Below are positions 1 to 48,351 of a DNA stretch of 48,351 nt, piece by piece. Positions within the stretch are counted from its first letter, which is position 1. Every line of letters starts with the position of its first letter. This DNA is from a virus: the IMG/VR virus record IMGVR_UViG_3300028920_000099, positions 1-48,351 of that record, one strand, 5' to 3'. The notes under the pieces are model-generated. The model was not told where the DNA came from. It did no database searches and saw nothing but the letters and a program-made list of their open reading frames with translations. The position numbers and the translations under genes are program-made.

Positions 1-1280
1 TCACCATATTTTGCATAATACTGCTCTTTCCATACGTTAAACATATTTTCTATCTTAGTTCCTTCAGGAATACCTAGAGTTTTATAACCTAGTTTGAACT
101 CATTGGTTGTCTGAGAGGACGCAATGTGCCACTGTCTTCGTATTAACTTACCCATAGAGTCGTCACCTTTAAGTACATTGGCTAGACTAGATACGTCAAC
201 CGTATGTAACCTAGGAGAAGTATAGTCATTCCCGAAGTTAGCTGAAAACGGTTTATTTGGTAAGTCACCCTTAATTGCTGCACTCTTAGCTACATCATCC
301 CTTAAAGTAAGATAAACTCCCATACCGTACTCAGAAGGAGAAGCACCCTCATAAGGTATTACTTGTCTTAAATCCCCAGTATAGGATGTACCGTGCTTCC
401 ACTGTTTTTGAACATAATCTATTGTATGGTCTAGAGCAGGGATATTACCAATTAAGTTGTTATTATTCTTACTTCTTAATTTTACTTTACCTCCCCTAAT
501 CTTATCAAGTTCAGAATTCTCCAGGTTTATTCTAGTACGCCTAAATGCTTGTTCCGTTATTTGTTCAATATTACTGTCATCTACAACATATACTGATACC
601 ATTTCCCCTAAACGCGGGTCAATTTCTTCAGCACGCTTTGCTGCGTAGTAACCTAGTTCATTACTAACTAACTCATAGTTATCTACACTTATTTGTCTAA
701 CTATTAATGGTTTTGCTAACGCACCTTTATTTTTTATTATAGACCGTGCTAAGTCTTCCACCTCTTTTGGGTCAACCAACTCCTTAGATTCTACTGGGGG
801 TCTTATTGTAGATGTATCTACTTGGTAATGTTGTGCTGGTTTAGCTGGGTTAGTTAGTTGTTTACTGTTTACGGAGTATTCTCCAGAAAAATACCGTTTA
901 GATTGGTCTATTATTTGTTTAACGTTACTATCATCTACCAGATACACTGTGACCATCTCAGCACGTTTAGGGTCAATTTCTTCAGCACGTTTTGCTGCAA
1001 AATACCCCAGTTCACTTCCTTCAACTAATTCATAAGAATCCCCGCCAATTCTCTTAATATAAATAGGTTGTGCTAAGCTTCCCTCATTTCTTACAATCGA
1101 CTTAGCTAGTTCTTCTACCTTATTAGGGTCAAGTCCTTCACTAGACGCTTTAGTAGTTATTGAACTTACATCTACTGTTCTGAATTCCGGAGGTTTAGGA
1201 CTATCAGGAAGTTCTACGTTAGGTCGTGGAGTTCCTAAATTGGGAGTAATACCTTGTTTTTCTGCTAGTAGTTCGGGCAT
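1..1280 (-). CDS. Ejection-cluster polyvalent protein, N-terminal 426 residues (continues at 48351)
   Basis: The frame is open from ATG 1280 to the window edge and continues in frame at 48351-47883, giving 582 aa in all. Residues about 38-125 and 154-243 are two similar ParB-like domains; both carry an E-L-G-Y-(F/Y)-A-A-K-R-A-E-E-I-D-P core and end in a Y-(L/V)-V-D-D-S-N stretch. From about residue 296 a putative ADP-ribosyltransferase (PARP/ART-like) module begins with WKHGTSYTG and GMGVYLTLRDDVAKSAA, matching the HGT and G-x-Y-(x)n-A pattern of that fold. Its C-terminal part lies on the other side of the junction. The gene sits among T7-type internal virion genes, so I infer the product is packaged and ejected with DNA. 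It shares its frame with the 806-aa gene upstream and is separated from it by one TAG. The start is uncertain: ATG 1280 has only AAGG three bases upstream. ParB-like call fairly sure, ART call moderate. Confidence 0.75.
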   Translation of the reverse strand, partial: MPELLAEKQGITPNLGTPRPNVELPDSPKPPEFRTVDVSSITTKASSEGLDPNKVEELAKSIVRNEGSLAQPIYIKRIGGDSYELVEGSELGYFAAKRAEEIDPKRAEMVTVYLVDDSNVKQIIDQSKRYFSGEYSVNSKQLTNPAKPAQHYQVDTSTIRPPVESKELVDPKEVEDLARSIIKNKGALAKPLIVRQISVDNYELVSNELGYYAAKRAEEIDPRLGEMVSVYVVDDSNIEQITEQAFRRTRINLENSELDKIRGGKVKLRSKNNNNLIGNIPALDHTIDYVQKQWKHGTSYTGDLRQVIPYEGASPSEYGMGVYLTLRDDVAKSAAIKGDLPNKPFSANFGNDYTSPRLHTVDVSSLANVLKGDDSMGKLIRRQWHIASSQTTNEFKLGYKTLGIPEGTKIENMFNVWKEQYYAKYG

Positions 1281-1346: not shown

Positions 1347-3767
1347 CTATTCTAATAATTTGTTTCTTGGAGGGTCAACTGGTATAACGTCATCCTTAAT
1401 TGATATGGTGTCATCAACAATACCTGTAGATGCTTCTTTAGTAGTTTTTTCTACAGATAAATTACCACGGTATAGCGGGTATAATTCGAGTTTAGCTTTT
1501 AGTTCGTGGTTTACTGCATTTACTGAGTCAATTTGTTCTAGTATTCTACTTGCCTCTGCTGATTCCCCACTTAATTTTATGTCTGACCTAATATAGTCAT
1601 TCATATCCTCTACCACACTAGGGGATTCACTCTGTAAGTCTTTAGGGTATTGTTGCTTAATAGCGTCATACGCCTTACCCTCATCAGCAAGCTTAGCTAG
1701 TGCCACATTACGTTGATAATATAGGGGAGCTAATTCCTTAATATCAGCACCTTCACCTATTTTCTTTTTTATTACATCAGTTAACCTGTCATACTCAGTA
1801 TAAGCATTATCCGAGTTAATACCCATAATGGTTGTTCCTGGGTTTTCTGGAGGCGGATGTACTGCTTTTTCTACCTTAACTACTGTTTCATCAGGCATCT
1901 TTAGGGTTGTTGTGTCCGACAAGTTACGGTTAATTGGTGTACCGAATTCGCCTAGTGCTGCTCCTTGAGGACTACTTCTTAAAGCTCCTATCTCTGTATC
2001 CGTCAAAATACCAGAACTACTAGGAGTAACTAAAGGTTTTCCGTCTGTATCAGTTATTCTTTTAGCTGCTTCTGTTAAATCCTCACTATTTCTTGTAACG
2101 TCTTCTACTACCGATGCAGGGTTAAGTAATTTACTGGATACTAACTCAGATTTTAACTGAGGATACATTAGGTATTGTTCCGGTAAACCCGGTGGTAAGT
2201 CATCTACTATTTCAGCATCTACTGCCTGTACAGGTATTTCTACTGTGTATTTACCGTCGGGGGAAGTGTATCTTATATAACTTCTTGTAGAGATTACATC
2301 ACCAGGGTCTATATTGGGGTCTCTAGGGACAATACTGTAAGGCGTTGTTGGTACATCATCCGCAGCAGCAGACAACATTTTTAGTGGTTCGCGTCCTGGG
2401 AGTTGTATTAATTCTGGTAATACTTCTTCTGTTTGATTTAGTACATTATTATAGTTTTTTAGTCCCTCTCTAACTCCTTTAACTGTTTTACCGACAAGAA
2501 CGTCAGCAACTCCCCCCATGAAAATCTCGAAAGCGAATGACGGTATTCCTTGTAACGTCCAATGCAACGCACGACTAATAGTTTGTTCTCTTTGGGGTTT
2601 TCCTTGAGAAACTGCACTAGCAATATTTTCTGGTAAATCCCACATTATAGATGCGTGACGTTGCATAAATTCAGGAATTATTCTATTTTCTTCCTTCTCC
2701 CAAAATTCCTGTGTTACTCTATCACCTGCCTTAAACCCTTCAGGCTCATTCCAACTAAGATATTTTTCAGGACTCCATCTGTTAGATACACCCCAGTCTT
2801 TACCTTCTACTAACGCTTGCCAAACCCTAACTCCCTTATGTGGGTCAACTCCATCATTGTTCATCCTCATTATAGTATTATCTACAATGTCATATATACC
2901 ACCAACTAGGACACTTTCTACAGTGTTCAATACCTTTAATCCTAGTCCGACTACGGTTCCTACCCCTAATGTTTGGTCTCCTACTTGTGTTGCTCTAGGG
3001 TCAAACTTGTTTACTAGATTAGCTATACCGTCATAGTCACCATGTTCCGTTAAATACCTACCAAAAGGGCTATTAAAAAACCTACCAAGTAATCCACTAC
3101 CACCGGAACTCTCAACGCTTTGACCCATATCACTCACTGTACCATTTTGGCTAGTGTCTAAACTAATAGTGGGAGTTTTTGGTGTTACTGTACCATCGGG
3201 ATGCACAATAGCGTTATTGAACTCTATACCATGGTCTCTTCTAAAATTATGTAACTCAATTGCTTTATATGCTTCTTCTCTTAACTTTCTTGTTCTTTCT
3301 ATGTTTCCTTCTAAATCCGGTGTTATATCTTGAGGAAGTAAGTTATCCGGTAAACTATAAGGAGTACCTCCAGTGTCTGTCAAAAACTGTTCAACGCTTA
3401 ACTGTCCTTGTTGTGCTTCAATGGTTTTATTTTGAAGTCTTCTAGATGCTCCACTAATGTCACTGTCAAAACCATGAACGTCATAATATCTAGAAGGATT
3501 GACAGGTAGTACTGATTGAGGTATAAAGGGCTGCTCTGGTTGAACTTGTTGTTCTCCAGGTTGAGCTTGTTGTTCTGGTACTTGCTCAGTAGTTACCTGT
3601 TCTGGTTGTTCTTCAATAATAGGACTACTTTCTTGAGGTACACCTAATCCATCAGGAATGTCACCAGCAGTCGGTTGAGGTGCTTGTGAGGCTTGAGGTG
3701 AGCCTTCAGGTATGTTTCTACCCTCGGACAATTCTAATGGGTCAGGTTGGTCAAAAAAGTTAGACAT
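1347..3767 (-). CDS. Internal virion / ejection protein (806 aa)
   Basis: No enzyme domain recognised. The N-terminal 90 residues are rich in Pro, Gln and Glu and look disordered. The middle has two hydrophobic Gly-rich stretches, around VGLGLKVLNTVESVLVGGIY (about residue 275) and IPSFAFEIFMGGVADVLVG (about residue 412), which could touch or span a membrane. The C-terminal quarter is charged and helical. It lies between the 1421-aa cell-wall-degrading protein and the ParB/ART protein in the block that follows the tail tube genes, where T7 carries gp14-gp16, so an internal core or DNA-ejection role is inferred from position. It ends at a TAG, after which the same frame stays open into the next gene, so a readthrough form of about 1.41 thousand residues is possible. 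Its start at 3767 lies two bases after the TAA of the upstream gene. Confidence 0.7.
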   Translation of the reverse strand: MSNFFDQPDPLELSEGRNIPEGSPQASQAPQPTAGDIPDGLGVPQESSPIIEEQPEQVTTEQVPEQQAQPGEQQVQPEQPFIPQSVLPVNPSRYYDVHGFDSDISGASRRLQNKTIEAQQGQLSVEQFLTDTGGTPYSLPDNLLPQDITPDLEGNIERTRKLREEAYKAIELHNFRRDHGIEFNNAIVHPDGTVTPKTPTISLDTSQNGTVSDMGQSVESSGGSGLLGRFFNSPFGRYLTEHGDYDGIANLVNKFDPRATQVGDQTLGVGTVVGLGLKVLNTVESVLVGGIYDIVDNTIMRMNNDGVDPHKGVRVWQALVEGKDWGVSNRWSPEKYLSWNEPEGFKAGDRVTQEFWEKEENRIIPEFMQRHASIMWDLPENIASAVSQGKPQREQTISRALHWTLQGIPSFAFEIFMGGVADVLVGKTVKGVREGLKNYNNVLNQTEEVLPELIQLPGREPLKMLSAAADDVPTTPYSIVPRDPNIDPGDVISTRSYIRYTSPDGKYTVEIPVQAVDAEIVDDLPPGLPEQYLMYPQLKSELVSSKLLNPASVVEDVTRNSEDLTEAAKRITDTDGKPLVTPSSSGILTDTEIGALRSSPQGAALGEFGTPINRNLSDTTTLKMPDETVVKVEKAVHPPPENPGTTIMGINSDNAYTEYDRLTDVIKKKIGEGADIKELAPLYYQRNVALAKLADEGKAYDAIKQQYPKDLQSESPSVVEDMNDYIRSDIKLSGESAEASRILEQIDSVNAVNHELKAKLELYPLYRGNLSVEKTTKEASTGIVDDTISIKDDVIPVDPPRNKLLE

Positions 3768-3768
3768 A

Positions 3769-6700
3769 TTATAATCCTACTTGGTGTGTTCTAAAGTCTC
3801 CGTTATGTAACATTTGCTGGCATTGTGCGCACCCTTGTCTGGGGTTTCTGTGTATTACATTAGAATTGGAACCACCTTGAGGATTAGCGTAACTACGACC
3901 AACAACTGACCCCCATTTTTTTTTGTATTCATTCCATGTAATATAACCGTCAGTCCAATTAATTCTAGTACGTTCAGCTTCACTATGTTTTAACCCTACA
4001 GCTCCCCTCCAAATAGCTGCAGCAAAATCGTAAATACTTCTTACTTTCTTACCGTTTGCATCTTTTTCTACCTGTCTAATATACTTAGGTAAAGATACTG
4101 TCAGTTGCCAATGTAATCCTTTTTGTTTGTATTGCTCCATAGTCATTCCTGGATGTAACCATTTTAGGGTAGAGGGCATTACCTGGAAAGCACCAGTAGC
4201 ATTACCCTCACCAGTAGCCGCAATATTTGTGTTTACTGCATTAGCACTAAACCCTGATTCCCAATACAAATAATCAGCAATCCACACTGCAGGTAATCCA
4301 AGTATATCCCCTGCTTCTGCCAATGCTCTTGCTGCTTCTAAGTTTTTTGCTAAACCAGGATACCCATAATTGGCTGTTGGGTTATTTTTTCCTGAATAAG
4401 CCACACGATTAGATGAAGCTTGGTTATGGGCTGTACTTGGATTACCTGTATGACTAGAATTAATTGTACTTTTTCCAAGTGACTTATTTACTTTACTGGT
4501 ATTAACATACAGATTTAGACTACGACCAGAGTTTCGGACAAAGTTATAAATTTTGTCTCTATCCTGGATGTTAAACGTTGCTAAACTACCAGGAGTAACG
4601 CCGCTTTTACTAGCATCCCAATGAATACCAATTGCTGAACGGTTATGCCCACCAAAAGTAGGAGTTAATGACAAAAATTTATCACCAACTCCGGCTCCCG
4701 AACCAGGAATAGTGTCACGAGCTACAGTCCATTTACCTTCTGGTAACATACCCTGTCTTCCCGATGTAGTTCTATCACCACCAATACCTGTTGCTCCTGA
4801 TACTGCCTCAACAGCGAATAACTGACGACCATCTTTGTAACCCCTAATTGCTAATACTGGTTGTCCCGCTCTATTAGTACGACCAGTGGGATGAACAAAT
4901 AAATAAGAACCATCATTTATTGCCTCATCAGGTATTTCCCATCCCTCAACTGTTGTGCTACCATCTTTGTTGTTGTATTCCACGCTTGGTACGTTTTGAC
5001 TCCTATAACTTGTTGTTGTCATTGGTGTATAGCTTTTAAATCCAGCACTTTCGTTAGGAGTTGCTTGTCTGAATTTACCAGTATTCCTATCAAGAATGTA
5101 TCCATTGGAGTAATACACATTCTCAGATATCTTTCTTACTCCAGTATTACTTACTCCAGATGGAGTCCTATAGTAATCTGTATTACCGTGTCCTAAGTCA
5201 CCTTGACCTCTAGGTAGTTCGACATTACCAGTAAAACTTCCTATATAACCCATTGGGTCAACTTGACCAGAAATATATCCACCACTAAACTTGGTACCTA
5301 CCTCAAAGTGTAGATGTCTCCCGGTTGACGTTCCTCTACCTGGGTCATTAGCACCTCCACCCATTAATCCTATTTGGGAAGCAGGGTCTAATATTTGACC
5401 TTTAGTTACTGATACACTTCTTAAGTGAGCAAATAACTCGTATTTTCCATCTTTTGTTTTAACTATGACATAGTTACCGTAACCACCATTATGTTGGTTT
5501 TTTGCTCCGACATGAACAACCTCTCCACCTTGTATTGTAGCCACTCTAGGGTCATCAGAAGATATGTCAATCCCTTTGTGCATCCTCCTAGTACCGTGTA
5601 CTGGATGTACTCTCATCCCAAAAGGACTATGCATCCTTACATTACCTCCCCTAAACGGAGCATAACCCTTAGAACTAGGCATATTAGCTAAGTTACCAGC
5701 TAAGGGCATAGTTGGAGCATCTGGTTGTCTGTTACGAGGTGTAGCAACTGTTTGTGGTTTGGTGCGTTGCCCACCATCAGTAAAATTCGGTGTTACAACT
5801 ACTCCCTCAGAAGGTTCCCCCCATTCGTGTTTATACCATCTAGCTTTATTTACCAGTAAATCATCAGCATTCTCTAGTTTAGCTTTTAGAGTATTAAAAT
5901 GTTGTTGGTATAGTTTAACGTTAGTTCCTAGACCAGCTTTAGGTAAACCTTTGATTATTTTTTCTAAATCAACATATTTTCCATCAGTATGAGCTTTTTT
6001 TATTTCGGTAATACCCTGTAAATACCCCTGATTTAGTTCTATAAGAGCATCTAAAGTAGTTCTATCATCTTTAAGTCCACTGATTCTAGGAAGTTCGTAA
6101 TACTGACCACGCTCTAACTCAAAGTCTAGAGCCTTACCTAATTTGTTTGTTGTTGAGTTGTCTCTAGGTGCCGATGGTGGAGTTGGGTTAGATGATTCAG
6201 GTATCTGACTAGATGTTGATTCTTGGTCAACAACTGTCATAGTAGCTTCAACTCTTTGTCTAAACTCGTTTAGGGGCTTCTCGTCACTAGGGTTAAATAT
6301 GTTTAGTCCTCGTCTTTGCCACTTATTGCCTAATTCCCCAATACGACTTCTAGTAACTTCTAATTGTTGCTCAAGTGCGTCTAGTTCCTCTTGAGTAGCT
6401 TGAGGGACTCTTCTTTCTACATCAACAATGTCTACTCGTGATTGTGGAGATGTTCCAAGGGGAGTCCCCTGTTCATCCACACCTAAACCACTATCACCAG
6501 GTACTCGTATTTCTATTTGATTAGGCGGAGTAATACGGGATTTTAGTGCAGCATAAGCTTGTTCACGTTTAGCTAACTCATCTTGTAAGTCTAAAGCAGT
6601 TTTACGGTCACTATCAAACTCTTTATAGTAAGATAATACCCTATCCCATCCTCTTGCTTGTGCCTCACTAGGACTCTGTTTAATTGCGTATTCTAAATCG

Positions 6701-8034
6701 GCAATATCACCATCGGCACTACCGTCTCGAAGACCGTTATATACTTTTTTTGCTACAAGATAATTTCTTGCCTGTTCTATTTGGGGGTTATCTTCCCTTA
6801 ATCTACTTAGGTTCTCAGATTGGTGTACCGTTTCTTCTAAACGTCTTATCTGTTCATAATCCTCATTCCTTTGTCGGGCAATGTTTGTTTGAGTTGTTGG
6901 AAAAGATTCTAAACTACCAGGTAATCCTAGTTGTCTTAACAATAACGAACCTTGAGCCTGATACTCAGAGTCTGTCATTCCCACACCAGGAGTGCTTCTT
7001 AAATTTTCTAGTGCGGCAATACCCTGTACAGCTTGAACGAAACGTTGTCCCTCAGAAGAACGTTGTCCAGTAGTCTCATAATAGTTAGTTATTGCAGCGT
7101 TTAGTGGTTTATAGGCTTCCGAAATATATTCAAGATACGCTGTCTTATTTTTTATAATACCCTGTAAGGATGGGTCATTCTCAACAGTATCTAAGATTAT
7201 ATCATTAACTCTACCGATACGTTCATTAATGTCATCTGGAGTTAATACACTAGCCCCAGTATTAATTTCTTGAAGTATTGGGGCATACCTTACCTGAACC
7301 TGTTGTGCTGCAACATCCCTTTGTGAATTAATTAGTGCTTTACGTTCACCCTCTATCTGAGACAGCGACTCACCTCTTTGTTGGGTAAGCCACTTATTCA
7401 TATTAGAGTTAATATAGAATTGTTGGTGTGGAGGTAAGGCAGTAAAATACTCACTATTACGAAATTCATTAACATAGGCAGTAGCTTGGGTATAACCTGC
7501 CTCTCTAGAACCGTTAATGATAGTATCTTGTAACTGTAACTCCCATTCTTGAGTTACTGATTGTACCATCCCATCTAATTGTGCTAGTTGGGCTTTTTGT
7601 GCTTGTGCCTCTATTCCCATTTGGTGAGACTCTTTATTCATCTCATGAGACTCTTGGGCGCGTTGTTCTCTTTTTAGGGCTAGTTCGTTCTCTTTTCTTT
7701 GTTGGGCAATAGCTTCTCGTGCGCTTAGTCCTTGTGCAACAACTTGTCCTAGTTGAGATATTGCTCCCAAAATACCCGCACCATTATCTCCTCTATTAGC
7801 ATTATTAGCCCGATTTTGTGCAAGTCGTTCTTCCTCAGCTTGTATAGCCCGTCGTCTTAACTCACCAGCGTTTTGCTGGTCAACTTGAGCCTTACTTGCT
7901 GCTGCGGATGCTGCTTGAGAGTAGTTATCTAGGGTTTTTTGTATTACATTTTTGTAGTTATTAGTAGCAAAATCCGTTAATTCTGGAGTTTCTACCCCAG
8001 TAATCGGACTATTACCTCCTATCCGTCTAACCAT
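3769..8034 (-). CDS. Giant virion peptidoglycan hydrolase: M23 + L,D-transpeptidase-like + lytic transglycosylase (1421 aa)
   Basis: About 780 N-terminal residues are Ala/Gln/Glu-rich coiled coil. Three wall-related domains follow. (a) About 790-925 is an M23 (LytM) metallopeptidase, with SPFGMRVHPVHG, MHKGID and GRHLHFEV supplying the usual His/Asp zinc ligands. (b) About 1040-1165 resembles an L,D-transpeptidase (GMLPEGKW...IGIHWD), but where the catalytic Cys is expected the sequence reads TPGSLATF, so this domain may only bind. (c) About 1235-1390 is a lytic transglycosylase with YWESGF (catalytic Glu) and GAFQVMPSTL. The extreme C terminus has a CAQC motif. T7 gp16 has a single transglycosylase domain, so this protein is unusually well equipped. 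It probably forms part of the ejected channel that locally opens peptidoglycan. Domain calls come from visible motifs only. Confidence 0.85.
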   Translation of the reverse strand: MVRRIGGNSPITGVETPELTDFATNNYKNVIQKTLDNYSQAASAAASKAQVDQQNAGELRRRAIQAEEERLAQNRANNANRGDNGAGILGAISQLGQVVAQGLSAREAIAQQRKENELALKREQRAQESHEMNKESHQMGIEAQAQKAQLAQLDGMVQSVTQEWELQLQDTIINGSREAGYTQATAYVNEFRNSEYFTALPPHQQFYINSNMNKWLTQQRGESLSQIEGERKALINSQRDVAAQQVQVRYAPILQEINTGASVLTPDDINERIGRVNDIILDTVENDPSLQGIIKNKTAYLEYISEAYKPLNAAITNYYETTGQRSSEGQRFVQAVQGIAALENLRSTPGVGMTDSEYQAQGSLLLRQLGLPGSLESFPTTQTNIARQRNEDYEQIRRLEETVHQSENLSRLREDNPQIEQARNYLVAKKVYNGLRDGSADGDIADLEYAIKQSPSEAQARGWDRVLSYYKEFDSDRKTALDLQDELAKREQAYAALKSRITPPNQIEIRVPGDSGLGVDEQGTPLGTSPQSRVDIVDVERRVPQATQEELDALEQQLEVTRSRIGELGNKWQRRGLNIFNPSDEKPLNEFRQRVEATMTVVDQESTSSQIPESSNPTPPSAPRDNSTTNKLGKALDFELERGQYYELPRISGLKDDRTTLDALIELNQGYLQGITEIKKAHTDGKYVDLEKIIKGLPKAGLGTNVKLYQQHFNTLKAKLENADDLLVNKARWYKHEWGEPSEGVVVTPNFTDGGQRTKPQTVATPRNRQPDAPTMPLAGNLANMPSSKGYAPFRGGNVRMHSPFGMRVHPVHGTRRMHKGIDISSDDPRVATIQGGEVVHVGAKNQHNGGYGNYVIVKTKDGKYELFAHLRSVSVTKGQILDPASQIGLMGGGANDPGRGTSTGRHLHFEVGTKFSGGYISGQVDPMGYIGSFTGNVELPRGQGDLGHGNTDYYRTPSGVSNTGVRKISENVYYSNGYILDRNTGKFRQATPNESAGFKSYTPMTTTSYRSQNVPSVEYNNKDGSTTVEGWEIPDEAINDGSYLFVHPTGRTNRAGQPVLAIRGYKDGRQLFAVEAVSGATGIGGDRTTSGRQGMLPEGKWTVARDTIPGSGAGVGDKFLSLTPTFGGHNRSAIGIHWDASKSGVTPGSLATFNIQDRDKIYNFVRNSGRSLNLYVNTSKVNKSLGKSTINSSHTGNPSTAHNQASSNRVAYSGKNNPTANYGYPGLAKNLEAARALAEAGDILGLPAVWIADYLYWESGFSANAVNTNIAATGEGNATGAFQVMPSTLKWLHPGMTMEQYKQKGLHWQLTVSLPKYIRQVEKDANGKKVRSIYDFAAAIWRGAVGLKHSEAERTRINWTDGYITWNEYKKKWGSVVGRSYANPQGGSNSNVIHRNPRQGCAQCQQMLHNGDFRTHQVGL

Positions 8035-8054: not shown

Positions 8055-9857
8055 TTAAGCTGGGGGTGGGCTTCTATAACCTCCCAATTGGGATAATAAC
8101 CCGTGAGTTTGTGCGCCTATTTGGTTTAGACCAGAATACTCCTGCATCCTAGTATTACCTTGGTTGGCTGTATTACTAGCTAAGTTGGAATACGCTTGAT
8201 TGTACCATTGTAAAGGTAAACTACTAAACGCTGATTTAGCATTCTCTACATCAATTAAGCCTTGTCGTTGTAGATTATCTCGTTGTGATTGCGTTTGTTG
8301 TTGTCTTACCCCTTCTTGTGTATTTCTTAGGTGTTGGTCTAGAGTTGAGTTAAAAGCTGATAACATACCTTGACCAGCATCTCTTACATCGGGAAGTAGA
8401 GACCTAGAAAATAAGTCGTTTAGGGATTGTGCTTTTAGTTGTGCTAATTCGAGTTCGGCATTACCTTGTTGTTGAGCATTACTTGCTAACCCACTTAATT
8501 TACTTAATTCTGCTTCTTGCCCTCCAATAGCTATACCAGACTGTCCTACATCATTAGCTCTGTTTTTCTGGTTCATTATATTAGCTATTTGTTCCTGTAA
8601 GTCTTGCCCTCCTTGTCTTCTAGCTAATCTATTAGACTCTAAACCTCTGTTTAACTGGTTATCAATCCCGGTAAAACTATTAGATAAGTCCCTATCAGCA
8701 AGTTGCCCTTCAACATCAACAAAACTTCTAGATATGTCATTAAATCTTCTAGATGTGTTGGCTCGTCGTGATGCTGATTGACTCTCTAGTGAGGCTGTAC
8801 CCTGTTCTAAACCGTACCTTTCCATCATGGAACGTCTTTGGGTAGCTGTATCATCATTAACTAATTGGTCAAAACCTACCCCAGCAGCTTGAGAACCTGA
8901 GCCTCTATCTTGCGCACCAAGTAACGCCTCAAATTGGGAGTATTGCCTCTCACTTCTACTTATTTGTCTAAGTAAGTCTCTTAAACTTTCACCCCGATTA
9001 AACTCTGATTGAGCCTTACTTAATTGTTCATTAACCTTAGCTTGGCTGTCTGCGTCGTCAATTTGGGTAAGTTCTTGGTTTAGTTGGTTCTCTCTTTGTT
9101 GAAGTTGTAGTCCAGTTTTGTCACGCTGGTTTAGTGCAACTCCCTTCTGGAAAGAAGCATCTCTAAAGTTTTGACGGTCACTAAGACTTAACTGTTCTAG
9201 AGACTGTTGGTAGTTTTGATTGGCAGTATCTAAGGCAATGTCGAACTGTTGTTGTCCGTACAATAAATCTTGTTTTTCTGCCTTTAACTTCTCAACGTCT
9301 AGAGAGTTACGAGCATTAATCATTTTTTCATTAAACTTAGCTAAATCTTGTCCTAGTTTAAGTGATTCTGCTCTTAGTGAACGTTGAGTCTCATCAGAAG
9401 CGTAGTTAACTTGTCTAAGTTGTCTATTAAGCTCTAACTCTTGTTGTGTAGCAAATCTGTTAGCCTCGTTAGCTAGTGTAGAGGCATTGTATTGCTGAGT
9501 CCTTAAATAGTTTTCTTGTTCTAGTTGTTGCCTCTCTAAACCATTTTGAAACAAAGCTTGTTGATACTGTGTTTGTATGTCATTAAACCCTAGTTCCATC
9601 TCTTTTTGAAGCTGCATATTCTGCATATCAAAAGAATACTGGTTAAAATCGTTTTGGGCTGCTAATTGACCTTTAAGTATGTCTTCTTGCATTTTTTGTG
9701 CCTCAATTGCACTCGTAAAAGCAAGTAAGTCTGCTTCATGTTTAGCTCTAGGGTCTGGTTGAAAAGCTGTACCACCACCACGAGTTAGACCCGCAATAGT
9801 AGAACCTACACCAACAACCTGCGAAATACCCGAAATAACTGTAGATGCTGCTCCCAT
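8055..9857 (-). CDS. Gln-rich internal virion protein (600 aa)
   Basis: The protein is almost entirely Gln/Asn/Arg/Leu-rich heptad-like sequence and probably forms long alpha-helical coiled coil, after a short N-terminal Gly/Val/Ala hydrophobic stretch (VISGISQVVGVGSTIAGL). It ends in YRSPPPA. No catalytic motif is seen. Its place after tail tubular protein B and two small membrane proteins, and before the hydrolase-bearing ejection protein, matches T7 gp14, so I infer an internal core protein that may insert in the outer membrane on ejection. Composition resembles the 261-aa and 155-aa proteins at the head of the late region, but this need not mean homology. Confidence 0.7.
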   Translation of the reverse strand: MGAASTVISGISQVVGVGSTIAGLTRGGGTAFQPDPRAKHEADLLAFTSAIEAQKMQEDILKGQLAAQNDFNQYSFDMQNMQLQKEMELGFNDIQTQYQQALFQNGLERQQLEQENYLRTQQYNASTLANEANRFATQQELELNRQLRQVNYASDETQRSLRAESLKLGQDLAKFNEKMINARNSLDVEKLKAEKQDLLYGQQQFDIALDTANQNYQQSLEQLSLSDRQNFRDASFQKGVALNQRDKTGLQLQQRENQLNQELTQIDDADSQAKVNEQLSKAQSEFNRGESLRDLLRQISRSERQYSQFEALLGAQDRGSGSQAAGVGFDQLVNDDTATQRRSMMERYGLEQGTASLESQSASRRANTSRRFNDISRSFVDVEGQLADRDLSNSFTGIDNQLNRGLESNRLARRQGGQDLQEQIANIMNQKNRANDVGQSGIAIGGQEAELSKLSGLASNAQQQGNAELELAQLKAQSLNDLFSRSLLPDVRDAGQGMLSAFNSTLDQHLRNTQEGVRQQQTQSQRDNLQRQGLIDVENAKSAFSSLPLQWYNQAYSNLASNTANQGNTRMQEYSGLNQIGAQTHGLLSQLGGYRSPPPA

Positions 9858-26961: not shown

Positions 26962-26990
26962 TTGACAATTTTTTATTTTGGGGATATAAT
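26962..26990 (+). promoter_or_regulatory. Consensus sigma70-type promoter
   Basis: TTGACA (26962-26967), 17-base spacer, TATAAT (26985-26990). A perfect consensus pair pointing into the early arm; host RNA polymerase is the expected user. Confidence 0.85.
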
Positions 26991-27184: not shown

Positions 27185-27976
27185 ATGACGTACTTAACTA
27201 AAGCCCAATACTTCGATTTCGACATCTGTGATATCCATGCCGATATCAAGAACAGTTACGATGAACAGTTAATTGAACAGCTTGCACAATCTATGCTCGA
27301 TACCGGGACGTTAATCTATCCGTTAATCGTTAAGAAAATCACTCTAACCTCATACGAATTAGTCAGTAACGAATTAGGGTACTTGGCAGCACAACGCGCT
27401 GAACAACTTGACCCTCGACGCGGTGAGATGGTTGCTGGTTATCTCATTGAAGAAGAAAACGTTGACGAGTTCACTAAACAGTTACTTGCACAAGCAGCGT
27501 TGTTCGACTCTATACACGCTACTGCTCCTGAAGTACAGCCCGAACCCGCAAAGGTATTATCGTTCAACGTACACCGTCAAGCCAAGTTAAACCGCGAACA
27601 TCCTGTGATTCCCATTAAACAAGCTAAACGAGTCAAAGAAGCCCGCACCTTGAACAGCTACGCTACTCCTCAGATTAAAGAAGAGACTGCAGAACAATGG
27701 GCTAAAGAGGACACCAAAGATGCTCCTACCAAGGTCAACAGAAAATCAAGATTCGGTAAGCTGTTACAAAGTGCTGAAGAATGGTCAGACTCAGTTAACA
27801 AGTTCGATAAAAAAGTTGAGTCATGTTCCAAGAAAGTACAAAAGAAACTAGAAGAGGTAGCCAAGACACCAACCAGTAAAACATTAGACCTCTGCCTCAA
27901 CCTATCAGAAAACTACGACGAGTGGGCAAGTAACTTCGACCAAATGGTTCAAGAACTTGACAACACTACCAAATAA
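27185..27976 (+). CDS. ParB-like (ParB N-terminal/Srx-fold) protein, first early gene (263 aa)
   Basis: Residues about 10-115 form a ParB-like domain: DEQLIEQLAQSMLDTG, PLIVKK, SYELVSNELGYLAAQRAE, LDPRRGEMVAGYLIEEENVD. The core is very close to that of the second ParB-like domain of the ejected protein at 1-1280. The C-terminal 150 residues are Lys/Glu-rich helix without recognised domain. ATG 27185 has AAAGGA upstream and fits the promoter at 27101. A longer TTG-initiated frame from 27101 would start inside that promoter and is rejected. Third positions look richer in C than in neighbouring genes, so it may have been acquired separately. Function is unknown: DNA binding, CTPase/nuclease-like or regulatory roles are possible. 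Confidence 0.75.
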   Translation: MTYLTKAQYFDFDICDIHADIKNSYDEQLIEQLAQSMLDTGTLIYPLIVKKITLTSYELVSNELGYLAAQRAEQLDPRRGEMVAGYLIEEENVDEFTKQLLAQAALFDSIHATAPEVQPEPAKVLSFNVHRQAKLNREHPVIPIKQAKRVKEARTLNSYATPQIKEETAEQWAKEDTKDAPTKVNRKSRFGKLLQSAEEWSDSVNKFDKKVESCSKKVQKKLEEVAKTPTSKTLDLCLNLSENYDEWASNFDQMVQELDNTTK

Positions 27977-40179: not shown

Positions 40180-40683
40180 ATGATGAAAGAACTACTCAAA
40201 AAGATTCACAAAGTTAACCAAAAAATATCCACTGTAGATAAGGGTGGAACCAATACCTTCTCGAAGTACAATTACACACGACTAGGAGACATACTATCTC
40301 CCTTAAGACCATTACTCCTTGAAGTAGGATTAGTAGTAACTCAATCAACTGACCCAATACACAACGAAATCACGTTTGACCAAGAAAAAGGATGTTACTA
40401 CACTAACTCTGCTTGTACCTGTTTGACTAAAGTTTACGACATAGAGACGGGTGAGTCTTTAGAGGTACACAGTGTTGGGTATTCACTAGATAAGAATGGT
40501 GACAAAGCTGCCTACAAAGCTATTACTGGTGCGCGTAAGTATGGTATAACTTCACTGTTCAACCTTGATTGGGACGCGGTTGAACCGGAAGACGACAAGT
40601 ACGATAGTAACCGCCCTTCTAGTAAGAGCAATACTCTCCAAGCTAAGCCAGCAAGACGATTACAGTCTAAAGGATTGTTCTAA
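40180..40683 (+). CDS. ERF-like single-strand annealing protein (167 aa)
   Basis: Pattern of the ERF recombinase family: KIHKVNQKISTVDKGGTN, FSKYNYTRLGDILSPLRPLL, EVGLVVTQST, a sex-conserved LEVHSVGYSLDKNGDKAAYK and AITGARKYGITSLFNL, then an acidic spot DAVEPEDD. Preferred start ATG 40180 after AGGAGC; the longer frame from 40129 runs through the previous gene. With the RecB/Cas4-like nuclease downstream it makes a likely exonuclease/annealase recombination pair. Confidence 0.78.
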   Translation: MMKELLKKIHKVNQKISTVDKGGTNTFSKYNYTRLGDILSPLRPLLLEVGLVVTQSTDPIHNEITFDQEKGCYYTNSACTCLTKVYDIETGESLEVHSVGYSLDKNGDKAAYKAITGARKYGITSLFNLDWDAVEPEDDKYDSNRPSSKSNTLQAKPARRLQSKGLF

Positions 40684-40714
40684 TTAACTTGTCCTAAGCA
40701 TGACACTAAACTGC
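40684..40714 (+). repeat. 31-bp exact direct repeat, copy 1
   Basis: Intergenic, directly after the ERF-like gene. Identical to 41376-41406. Contains TTGTCC and ATGACACTAAACTGC; the ATG is probably not used. Candidate regulatory or processing element. Confidence 0.7.
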
Positions 40715-40744
40715 TTAACACACACTATAACCAAGGTAAAACAA

Positions 40745-41374
40745 ATGACAGTACAAAAAGCACGAGTAACTCAAGTACCTTTAGGTTCCGAATCATTAGA
40801 AGGACTTATGTTACCAGATGGGTCATTCGCAATAAGTGCCTCACAAGTTGCTGCCTATTTCCAATTCGACAGTAACCAATCATCAAGGACACTCAAATCC
40901 TTACTGGGTGCGGGTTTCCAGTTCGACAAAGTAGCATCAGAGATTCATCCTAAGAAGGTCAATGTAATCGACTTATTGACATTAGAAAAACTTATCATTG
41001 AGCTAGCCTTTCGAGGCAATGAAAAGGCACAATGGTTAGGACGTACGTTAGTCGGACTATCACTTACTCAATTATTTAGTGACGCATTTGGTGTTAAATT
41101 TAATACTGAAGAACGTGAACGCTATGTCAAGTTCCGTGAAGCCCACAAAAAGAGTTATCATCCTAACTTAACTAAGTGGTTACAGATTGATGGTTGTGAG
41201 GGTATTGAGTACGGTAAGCAGTGCAACATCTTCAAGGCTTGTTGTGGACTACCTCTTAAGAGTATTAATACCTACACAGAAGAAGAGATGGACTTAATGA
41301 ACAAGAAGGAAGTTGAGTATAATGTAATGCGTAAGCTTGGATTAACTCACCCAGAAGCATTAGAACGTCTCTAA
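40745..41374 (+). CDS. Antirepressor/KilA-N-like hypothetical protein (209 aa)
   Basis: Start ATG 40745 (AAGG upstream); an upstream ATG lies in the repeat. Residues about 15-110 have GLMLPDGSFAISASQVAAYF, SSRTLKSLLG and a later ELAFRGNEKAQ, resembling phage-regulator domains common in cyanobacteria and their phages. The C-terminal half has CNIFKACCGLPL and an Asn/Glu-rich end. Could regulate transcription, or act in replication given its neighbours. Only the N-terminal resemblance is claimed. Confidence 0.5.
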   Translation: MTVQKARVTQVPLGSESLEGLMLPDGSFAISASQVAAYFQFDSNQSSRTLKSLLGAGFQFDKVASEIHPKKVNVIDLLTLEKLIIELAFRGNEKAQWLGRTLVGLSLTQLFSDAFGVKFNTEERERYVKFREAHKKSYHPNLTKWLQIDGCEGIEYGKQCNIFKACCGLPLKSINTYTEEEMDLMNKKEVEYNVMRKLGLTHPEALERL

Positions 41375-41375
41375 G

Positions 41376-41406
41376 TTAACTTGTCCTAAGCATGACACTA
41401 AACTGC
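41376..41406 (+). repeat. 31-bp exact direct repeat, copy 2
   Basis: Identical to 40684-40714, here between the antirepressor-like gene and the putative SSB gene. Confidence 0.7.
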
Positions 41407-41451
41407 CTAATTTGTGGTAAGCTAGTTTCATTTACTAATCGAGGAAAAACA

Positions 41452-44586: not shown

Positions 44587-47500
44587 CTATAAGTAAGGGT
44601 TATCTACCCACATTTTATAATTTTCCTCAGCTAGTCTTTGTACTTCTTCCCTAGGAAGTAGGTCACTTATTTGACGGTTCCTTTGGATTATACGGTCAAC
44701 AGCCTTATGATAAGGTATATTATTCTTTTCAGCAAAACGAACAATGATACCCAATTCAGTACGCAACATGACATCATAAGTAATTAAGTCTAAAGCGTTC
44801 TGTTTAATTTTTGCTGCCTCTTCAGCATCTGATGCTAATGATATTTTCTTGTGTAATCCCCTTATTGTTTTTTGAGTATCCCTCAACATATACTCAATCT
44901 CTTTCCTTGACCGATAACCCATGTTCCAATAAACATTGATTGGGTGTGGGTTAGCTCCAATTAATTCTGCTAAACCAGCTAAGTTACCGAATACTGATTC
45001 TTGTTGTGCGCGTGACTCATAATCGGTCTCACCTCCTAACCAGGATTTCTTACCTTGAGTCCATTTACCGGTAGTAATGTCGAACTCAGGAGCTTCTGCC
45101 GCTAAACCAGTATAACTAAAAGACTTGTTTAAACTCTTTAGGGCTGGTAAGGCTGTTGTTATCCAGTAATACGATTGGTTACTTACTTCGATACCGAATA
45201 AGTCTCGTTTCTTGGATGAATTAGCTAGTGTCTGGTATTCTCTGTCGTACTCATCAATACCAGTAAAAGCAGTTGCTAAACCTTTTAGTATTGGTGAAGT
45301 TTCGCTGTTGAATAGTCTTCTTAGAAGTGGAGTCTTTTCCTTGTGTGGATTTTCGTTTCTGTTACTAGGACGCTTACCTGATTGAAACATACCTAAGTCA
45401 TCAAGAAACATATTAACTTCTTCAATACTTCCTAGTTGGGGTATTACGGTTACTAATGGATTAGCGTACCATTGAGCTTGACCTGTGCCAGTAAACTCCT
45501 TGTCAATCCTAATAGGTAAAGTAATACTATTTTGATTAGTCCATGGACTCTCTGTACCAGCAAACTCTACAGGGTAATCCTCCTTAAGAGTGTCTTGGTA
45601 ATTAGACGTTAACTTAAGAAATGCTGCGAACTTTTGAGGGTTTTCTACAACGTATCTTACTGTTTGTTGGGCGGATTTAATCCTCCAAGAAAGAAAGGGT
45701 AGTACAGATGATGCCGCTTTATATGCCGCATTGTCATTAGGTAAGTCATCAAACATAAAAGAGTGCTTCCTCACATAATCAAGTGCATCCTCAATATCAG
45801 CATGATACGGTAAACTATCCAAGAAATCATTATCAAAAATACGAGTAAAACGCTTTTTCGACATGACTTGCTCTAACATTGTTAATTTAGCCATATTGTC
45901 TGTCAATTCGTTACCGTAACTTAAACCCTTAAAAAGAGTATTATCTACTACAGCGTTAGCTCCACTGATTACCTTTTCACCAATAAACTCTCCTACGTTG
46001 TCAGGATAGTTCTCCTTCATCCATTGGTATTGTCTTACTGTTCTCCTAACGGAGTTTAGGTCTATTTTACTTGTTTTATTTACGTTACCGAACATAGTTG
46101 ATGTATCTATAAGACCAGCACGTTCTAATGCTTTCCAGAGGTCAAATTCACTATAACCTTTACCGTACTCCTTAACTTTACTTAATGACTCACTAAAGTT
46201 GTTTATTGTACCATTAATTACATTTCTTGAGTCATGCCAAGCTTTACGAGAAACATTGGATAAGTAGTTATGGGGGTGAATACCCATTGACTCCAAGTAA
46301 GCTGAATTACCGATGACTTGTTTTCCTAACCATTGAGTAGTCCCCAACATAACGCCACTACTTAACTTTCTTATGAAACCAAGTGTTTGTCCTACTAAAC
46401 CTAAACGTATTGGGTCACTAGCCAATAACATATCAGCATAGTTAACCTTGGCAATTCTTGGATGAACGTAAACGTTATTAAGCATATCACTCACGTCACT
46501 CCCTAAACGCCTCTTAAGTCTGTCTGGTATAGCTTTTCCTAGTCCAACAAACTCCTTATACTCAGGGTCACTTATTGCCACATCTTTTGGGATGCCGAAC
46601 TTTTCTTGCGCACCCCGAATAAAACCAAACATTCTAGATTGTTCAGTAGTTATAGTCTCTAGTGTATCTCTATAAGCTTGTGATGCTCTTACAGGGTCAG
46701 TAACAAATATATCATTAAGGTCATCAAATGGTAGTTTATAATGTTTGTATAGGTGTTCATGTACTTTACCGGAGTCTAATGGTATTTTACTGAGTAATCC
46801 AGTCTCTAACATAAAGTCTAGTTCATCTGGACTAAAGATGTTGTTGAACACATGGGATAATACAGCGTCATTCCCTTCATCAAGTAATTGGTTAATAGTG
46901 TCGTATTGTTTAATACCCTTAAGCTCCATTAAACCCCTGATACCCTCATCAGTAGTCGCATTTAGTCTATCAAAAATACCAGCCCTCTTAAATAGGTAAT
47001 CTATTGTTTGTAGGTCAGAAGGAATCAGCATATTGGTATTACGAGAGTCAACTAACCAGTTTTTTGCACTGTCAACAATATAATCCTGATGAGCTAATCC
47101 CTTATTTTTTACCACTTGGTTAATCATTTGTTTAGCTTCTGGACTAAAAACGCGTCCTATGTAGTCTTCATTAATTACGTCTGATAGGTCAATACCAGCT
47201 TTTTTGACAACATTAGCTATTTCGTATTGTGTTTGAACTAAGTCGTTAGCGTACTTTGACAAGCTCATAATATTATCATCGGATAAACCCGCTCTTTTTA
47301 GGTATTCTATGTTGTCTTGTTGTACACGCAATACTACTGCTTGTGCGGCGGGGTTAAGTTTTTGGGAATAATCTAAAAGGTATTGTAGGTTAGCCGTTTC
47401 TTGCAGCTTGTACATAATACTGTTTTTTGTGCTACCAGTCGGTAAATCTTTTAATACCTTGTTTGTTTGTACTCTTAATACTCGTGCTTTTTTGGCTAGT

Positions 47501-47883
47501 TCTACATTCTCAAACAAAGAAACAATATAACCTTTACCACGTCTGTCTAAGTTCTTTAAGTAACTAGCAATACCATCATCAAGGTTTAGTCCTTTAGCTA
47601 GTCTCTCTAAACCATGTAAAGCCCTACTTTCCATACGATAAAAGAAGTTCGGGTCAAAAGCACTTGCGTCAACTATACCAGCACTCTTTCTTAACCTATT
47701 AAAGAATAAGTCAATGTTATTTCGTGCTGATAGGTTAGATTTAACATGAGGGTTAACTCTTATCCATAAGTCGTGTAACATATTGACGTGCTTAATAACG
47801 TCTGATGGAGCATTGGGGTCAATGTCTTCCATCTTAAAGGACTCATCAGCCCACTCATTTAGTTTACAGTTTAGTATTGTCAT
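44587..47883 (-). CDS. Large internal virion / ejection protein (1098 aa)
   Basis: Mostly alpha-helical throughout, rich in Leu, Asp, Asn and Lys, with no recognised catalytic motif. There is a hydrophobic-amphipathic stretch near LGFIRKLSSGVMLGTTQWLG. Its TAATG overlap with the ParB/ART gene and place before the tail fibre match T7 gp16 in position and size (1318 aa), but the hydrolase domains are in the 1421-aa protein here. An ejected periplasmic-tunnel component is inferred. Confidence 0.72.
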   Translation of the reverse strand: MTILNCKLNEWADESFKMEDIDPNAPSDVIKHVNMLHDLWIRVNPHVKSNLSARNNIDLFFNRLRKSAGIVDASAFDPNFFYRMESRALHGLERLAKGLNLDDGIASYLKNLDRRGKGYIVSLFENVELAKKARVLRVQTNKVLKDLPTGSTKNSIMYKLQETANLQYLLDYSQKLNPAAQAVVLRVQQDNIEYLKRAGLSDDNIMSLSKYANDLVQTQYEIANVVKKAGIDLSDVINEDYIGRVFSPEAKQMINQVVKNKGLAHQDYIVDSAKNWLVDSRNTNMLIPSDLQTIDYLFKRAGIFDRLNATTDEGIRGLMELKGIKQYDTINQLLDEGNDAVLSHVFNNIFSPDELDFMLETGLLSKIPLDSGKVHEHLYKHYKLPFDDLNDIFVTDPVRASQAYRDTLETITTEQSRMFGFIRGAQEKFGIPKDVAISDPEYKEFVGLGKAIPDRLKRRLGSDVSDMLNNVYVHPRIAKVNYADMLLASDPIRLGLVGQTLGFIRKLSSGVMLGTTQWLGKQVIGNSAYLESMGIHPHNYLSNVSRKAWHDSRNVINGTINNFSESLSKVKEYGKGYSEFDLWKALERAGLIDTSTMFGNVNKTSKIDLNSVRRTVRQYQWMKENYPDNVGEFIGEKVISGANAVVDNTLFKGLSYGNELTDNMAKLTMLEQVMSKKRFTRIFDNDFLDSLPYHADIEDALDYVRKHSFMFDDLPNDNAAYKAASSVLPFLSWRIKSAQQTVRYVVENPQKFAAFLKLTSNYQDTLKEDYPVEFAGTESPWTNQNSITLPIRIDKEFTGTGQAQWYANPLVTVIPQLGSIEEVNMFLDDLGMFQSGKRPSNRNENPHKEKTPLLRRLFNSETSPILKGLATAFTGIDEYDREYQTLANSSKKRDLFGIEVSNQSYYWITTALPALKSLNKSFSYTGLAAEAPEFDITTGKWTQGKKSWLGGETDYESRAQQESVFGNLAGLAELIGANPHPINVYWNMGYRSRKEIEYMLRDTQKTIRGLHKKISLASDAEEAAKIKQNALDLITYDVMLRTELGIIVRFAEKNNIPYHKAVDRIIQRNRQISDLLPREEVQRLAEENYKMWVDNPYL

Positions 47884-48351
47884 TAGCAGGGGTCTCTCTG
47901 TATATCGGTTAGTTTTTCATTTTTGAGTGCTTGTTCGGCTGGTAGGTTATTTGTTACTGTGTCAACATCGGCTTTTACGTTATCAATATGTTTAATTGAC
48001 GTATCAGCTTTTATGTCAAACATATTATTAACTTGTTCTACCATTAACTGTTCTTTTTTATAATACTCCTCAGTTAGTTCCTGTAACTGAAAATCAGCGA
48101 ACTCTTTTTGGGCTTTAGTGGCATTAGCAATACTCACATCATCAGCAAGTTGCTCTGCTGTTACACCCTCTAAATGTCTCTTAGCTTCCATTACTTCCCC
48201 TAAATTGTTAGTTTTCTCTACAGGAGACGTACTAATTATGTCTAACTGGTTAGGCTTATAGACTACTAATGTTTGTATCCCGTTTTTGTCAACGAACATA
48301 CCCTCATAACCTATGTCAGCTAAGTTCTTTGTTAGGCGTTTCTGGAAATGT
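47883..48351 (-). CDS. Ejection-cluster polyvalent protein, C-terminal 156 residues (continues from position 1)
   Basis: Open to the window edge. The codon split by the junction is GA from positions 2-1 and A from 48351. Reading on gives E-HFQKRLTKNLADIGYEGMF then LVVYKPNQLDI, the 'GY(D/E)G...vV(F/Y).P.Q(I/L)' ending usual in phage ART-like and polyvalent proteins, so the ART module ends here. The remaining about 115 residues are Glu/Ala/Asn-rich helix. An ATG at 48299 is internal and not the true start. The stop overlaps the ATG of the 1098-aa gene (TAATG). Confidence 0.8.
   Translation of the reverse strand, partial: HFQKRLTKNLADIGYEGMFVDKNGIQTLVVYKPNQLDIISTSPVEKTNNLGEVMEAKRHLEGVTAEQLADDVSIANATKAQKEFADFQLQELTEEYYKKEQLMVEQVNNMFDIKADTSIKHIDNVKADVDTVTNNLPAEQALKNEKLTDIQRDPC

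Follow-up and report, generated by a model that had tools for sequence, protein, structure and literature searches.

Tandem ParB-like domains at a candidate domain-exchange site precede an ADP-ribosyltransferase-like module in a split ejection-cluster gene of a Saffermanviridae-type cyanophage

To our knowledge, little is known of the material that podophages inject beyond the DNA-entry machinery. ORF27 of the Anabaena phage A-4(L) matches chain B of PDB entry 9k3a over its full length; the title of this entry gives it as the cyanophage A4 pre-ejectosome, and 1071 of the 1717 ORF27 residues are modelled in it. The A4 pre-ejectosome structure is reportedly the subject of a paper by Hou and colleagues in PNAS in 2025. 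The family comprises A-4L ORF27 (9k3a chain B), Pf-WMP3 ORF26, Pf-WMP4 ORF32, Pbo-yong3 UVD33202.1 and PHROG 33290 and 832. T4 Alt, an injected ADP-ribosyltransferase (ART) with an R-S-E active site, provides by analogy a working model in which an ART enters alongside the DNA, ahead of any expression of phage genes. Polyvalent proteins are multi-domain late phage proteins encoded among virion genes that combine ART and ParB-like domains, and a paucity of them has been noted in cyanobacteria (Iyer et al. 2017, PMC5512222). The ParB/ART combination itself is not new, since relatives in the databases are already named ‘ParB-like partition nuclease’ or ‘mono-ADP-ribosyltransferase-like’; an earlier note on the DNA described here, which had regarded the combination as unprecedented in such a gene cluster, went too far in this respect.

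The window analysed here is the whole 48,351-nucleotide stretch of the IMG/VR virus record IMGVR_UViG_3300028920_000099. Its DNA polymerase, terminase and M23 peptidase have their nearest counterparts in Saffermanviridae and their kin (Pf-WMP3, PP, A-4L, TR020 and CHP58), with 32-39% identity for the terminase. By these comparisons, the phage has its affinities with Saffermanviridae (Pf-WMP3/4, A-4L) and not with the marine T7-like cyanophages, and the earlier label of ‘T7-like cyanophage’ is therefore replaced. The gene under study is flanked by the M23 peptidase gene and an ORF26-type gene, and the same gene order is seen for Pf-WMP3 ORF26, Pf-WMP4 ORF32, A-4L ORF27 and in TR020. The M23-peptidase ejection protein (3769..8034, minus strand) is an orthologue of A-4L ORF28 (PDB 9k2v chain E), and the gene beyond it (8055..9857, minus strand), whose product gave no match in the family search, is from gene order alone a probable internal virion protein corresponding to A-4L ORF29 (PDB 9k2v chain V). 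On the other side, the adjacent gene (44587..47883, minus strand) encodes the orthologue of A-4L ORF26. PHROGs lists it as ‘tail fiber; host specificity’, but since ORF26 is chain A of 9k3a it is better read as an ejection protein than as a tail fibre, and the listed name is probably a mistake throughout the family; so, probably, is the name ‘DNA-directed RNA polymerase’ carried by the Pbo-yong3 gene in this position. A search with PF00940 (phage RNA polymerase) gave no match, but neither did the controls, so that this negative carries no weight. In the related contigs G009 and G005 (L120, L122), the ParB/ART-type ejection protein is fused to its ORF26-type neighbour in a single ORF of more than 2000 amino acids (aa). 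No RNA family was found among those searched for in the window.

Because the A-4L orthologue belongs to a cryo-EM pre-ejectosome (PDB 9k3a chain B), it is likely, by analogy, that the window protein is packaged and ejected with the DNA; the ejection-cluster setting put forward in the earlier note is borne out by the same entry. Our main reading, which we hold with a probability of roughly 0.6, is that the part carrying the ParB-like and ART-like domains is the C-terminal cargo end of a capsid-core (pre-ejectosome) protein that a Saffermanviridae-type cyanophage ejects with its DNA.

The minus-strand ORF 1280..3 reads in frame over the contig ends into 48350..47883 to give a 582-aa protein, with the first 426 codons in 1..1280 and the last 155 residues and the stop in 47883..48351. 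The join is considered real because the ART-like module aligns with its relatives straight across it. The joined protein of the earlier note thus stands as far as the join is concerned, but its gene was mis-bounded: the 582-aa ORF forms the C-terminal portion of a 1411-aa ORF that a single in-frame TAG interrupts (1347..1349, minus strand; the sole stop in 1411 codons), and both the TAG and an 806-aa N-terminal part in the same frame (1347..3767, minus strand) had been missed. Between the two ORFs lie only the TAG and, ahead of the ATG, 22 sense codons, an anatomy that is directly observed.

Direct searches of viral_contigs and phages with the 582-aa protein found no close relatives, and relatives were therefore reached via the terminase. 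The nearest, G002 (IMGVR_UViG_3300047554_000625, terminase 61% identical), has a single 1809-aa ORF that aligns to both window parts (E = 4.6e-39 and 2.1e-22) and covers residues 86-781 and 1106-1393 of the 1411-codon unit. The ART module is present in 17 of 50 related contigs; no stop inside it was seen in any of the 17, and their ORFs are uninterrupted and at least 940 aa long unless truncated by a contig end. In gene position, backbone length and possession of an H-Y ART module the window gene agrees with the Saffermanviridae ejection-cluster protein, and homology to A-4L ORF27 extends over both backbone and ART module, so that the orthology to the A4 pre-ejectosome protein is also directly seen. 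The window gene differs in being split and in its ART module (about 19-23% identity), and because of the TAG at 1349-1347 it does not encode one continuous protein as A-4L ORF27 does; it is best described as ‘orthologous but split or interrupted’, not as an intact family member.

The TAG could have arisen recently by a nonsense change, could be an artefact of assembly, or could mark a split or a readthrough site from which two products result. Since TAG terminates 8 of the 42 listed genes in the window, it acts as a genuine stop codon here; for the same reason, and because the tRNA gene search of the window found none and hence no suppressor tRNA, recoding of TAG is unlikely and was rejected. 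We put just below even the chance that the gene is an ordinary single one, its TAG being due to faulty sequencing or assembly or to a newly arisen nonsense mutation. This would account for a single lesion at the backbone/cassette boundary of a gene that is continuous in relatives; against it, no second contig with the 21 bases around the TAG was found. If the TAG instead leaves the ParB-ART part as a free protein of its own, this would be made late and would not be ejected with the backbone. A real stop followed after 67 nt by an ATG with AAGG upstream fits such a protein, but the ribosome-binding site of this start is weak compared with those of neighbouring genes, the frame is unbroken over the 22 codons from TAG to ATG, and a split version was found in none of the relatives seen, which together make a free protein improbable. 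Under the main reading of an ejected cargo end, the cargo of the window genome itself might not be packaged, because the TAG separates it from the backbone.

Comparison of the relatives indicates that domains are exchanged in the stretch immediately ahead of the ART module, and the exchange is directly observed among close genomes. Six Wumptreviruses share 96-100% identity across most of the sequence on either side, their one point of difference adjoining the start of the ART module. This place is empty in Pf-WMP3, Lsp-JY17 and LPP-2 and holds an R-S-E ART in Lbo-JY12 (weak Pfam matches, 0.011 and 0.029). In PP and PP-DH22 it holds a cassette of ParB-like type, where the call for PP_26 is based on the name of PHROG 33290 and on a hand-made profile that includes PP_26, the independent profile being not significant. 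A-4L has one ParB-like domain at the cassette place (independent profile, 1.2e-7), at residues ~1318-1408 of ORF27 and followed by the ART part at ~1423-1600, whereas the window has two copies, its tandem pair lying just before the ART module. Canonical R-S-E ARTs are found in orthologues with E-values of 1.1e-9, 1.9e-11 and 9e-10; Pf-WMP4 and the morrisviruses have a canonical ART near the C terminus, and G045 has one upstream of the ART-like module. L130 has tandem ParB-like domains without an ART module. In G002 (L116:4993-10419), the cassette place is taken by ~640 aa of unrelated sequence with no ParB domains and no match in a Pfam search; it carries HESVH (HExxH) and may be zinc-peptidase-like, a domain call made from the motif alone. 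The presence of different domains at the same spot in relatives suggests a position for exchangeable cargo. As far as our searches show, this site of exchange, and its link to a pre-ejectosome of solved structure, are new.

The two ParB-like domains of the window protein occupy residues 32-124 (909..1187, minus strand) and 149-242 (555..836, minus strand) of the 582. Pfam ParB_N matches the gene fragment in two stretches (E = 6.6e-12). The repeats are identical at 45 of 73 compared residues and, in parts, 77-87% identical in DNA, with 36 of the 71 DNA differences at third codon positions; from these alignments, the two copies arose by duplication. An AlphaFold model of the pair (pTM 0.38, which is low overall, with domain cores mostly at ~65-86 pLDDT) matched ParB, Noc and sulfiredoxin in Foldseek at E-values of about 1e-5. 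Domain match and fold together place the protein in the ParB/Srx superfamily, in agreement with the two ParB/Srx-like domains anticipated by the earlier note. A search of bacterial genomes found no relative of the ParB-like domain. ParB-like domains of polyvalent proteins have been proposed to be DNases (PMC5512222), and this proposal, with the ParB_N match and the ParB/Noc fold, would favour true ParB CTPase clamps or nucleases acting on DNA. However, SELG/NELG replaces the GERR motif in the window copies, the GERR-type arginines of ParB CTPase and ParB nuclease are absent, none of the copies seen retains GERR, and the window protein gave no match to an HTH or any other ParB domain, so that a genuine clamp or nuclease appears quite improbable.

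The ART-like module is divided by the contig ends into an N-terminal part (1..404, minus strand), which contains the HGT motif (H296), E317 and Y323 of the 582 residues, and a C-terminal part (48234..48351, minus strand) with the third-residue region GIQTLVVYKP, in which Q/T stands for D/E. In the family alignment (n = 23) every sequence has the H and G of HGT, the E and Y of E-x-G-x-x-x-Y are conserved at 90% or more, and the third catalytic position is variable, with Q in the window and D in about 6 of 23. The module thus has the strand 1 His and strand 2 Tyr of Tox-ART-HYD2 (H296 and Y323), and GIQT in place of its strand 5 Asp. In the window protein itself the module gave no Pfam match, including to ART-PolyVal above the curated cut-off, and no match was found in the window to the R-S-E active site of T4 Alt type (PF03496/PF01129); R-S-E ARTs occur only as extra domains in relatives. 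The family ART profile finds PARP12 weakly (E = 0.022), and orthologues match ART-PolyVal below cut-off (1.9e-4 and 0.004). Since the window module spans the contig ends, the module of G002 was modelled (pLDDT 74.5), and this model matched 9k3a chain B (4e-8), MbcT (0.017) and AcrIF11 (0.065), as well as PfWMP3_26 and ART-PolyVal proteins in BFVD (3e-6 to 1e-5). MbcT and AcrIF11 are ART-fold proteins that use NAD. An ART fold, as the earlier note had suspected, is well supported, for the family by the fold search on the model and for the window by alignment.

Enzymatic activity of the window copy is doubtful from its residues, and modification of a target by it is uncertain because of the Q at the third ART position and the loss of the GERR arginines from the ParB-like domains. 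The non-conservation of catalytic residues in both domain types, and the position of the ART module as the constant part adjoining the ejection backbone, would suit catalytically dead ART-like and ParB-like folds that serve only in pre-ejectosome assembly or in gripping packaged DNA. Yet H and Y are nearly invariant despite very divergent sequences, several relatives have a complete R-S-E ART inserted, and a fixed structural part is not expected to show cassette exchange among near-identical genomes; a purely structural role is unlikely, though it retains some weight.

On the preferred reading of an ejected cargo end, the 806-aa N-terminal part would be the shared backbone of the ejection protein, and the C-terminal part would consist of an exchangeable cassette (two ParB-like domains in the window) followed by an ART-like module of the polyvalent H-Y type. 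The exchange site would accept ParB-like, R-S-E ART, HExxH-containing or other domains before the constant ART-like module. We hypothesize that the protein is ejected into the host with the phage DNA, where the ParB-like domains may bind or guard incoming or host DNA, and the ART-like module may bind NAD or modify a protein of the host, either RNA polymerase or one that acts in defence. With at least two effector-type domains in one late protein among virion genes, the window protein resembles polyvalent proteins, as previously noted; it differs from ART-PolyVal and DdrB-like ParB in lacking the strand 5 Asp and the ParB arginine, and in having the backbone of a pre-ejectosome protein. It would extend proteins of polyvalent type to phages of cyanobacteria, where few have been noted (PMC5512222). 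Effector-type domains differ among otherwise near-identical phages on a protein with an orthologue in a solved pre-ejectosome and, if the reading is correct, these cyanophages could vary what enters the host in the first minutes of infection.

A separate gene (27185..27976, plus strand) encodes at its N terminus a ParB-like domain (Pfam 1.6e-5, just under the cut-off) that is 42% identical to the corresponding region in the ejection protein. Following the leftward block, this is the first gene to point rightward, and a consensus sigma-70-type promoter (TTGACA-17-TATAAT, 12/12; 26962..26990, plus strand) lies about 200 bp upstream. From this position, the ParB-like domain is probably both brought in and made first, and the early gene would sustain its supply after the onset of transcription. 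That the ejection protein is a carrier of exchangeable cargo, swapping the domains injected within minutes of the onset of infection while the first early gene supplies the ParB-like domain anew, is a tentative proposal to which we give nearly even odds. Elsewhere in the window, at 40680-41410, the products of two neighbouring genes both begin with the peptide MTLNCL, and upstream of each gene lies TTAACTTGTCCTAAGC or a near-identical sequence, a pattern that resembles a local duplication.
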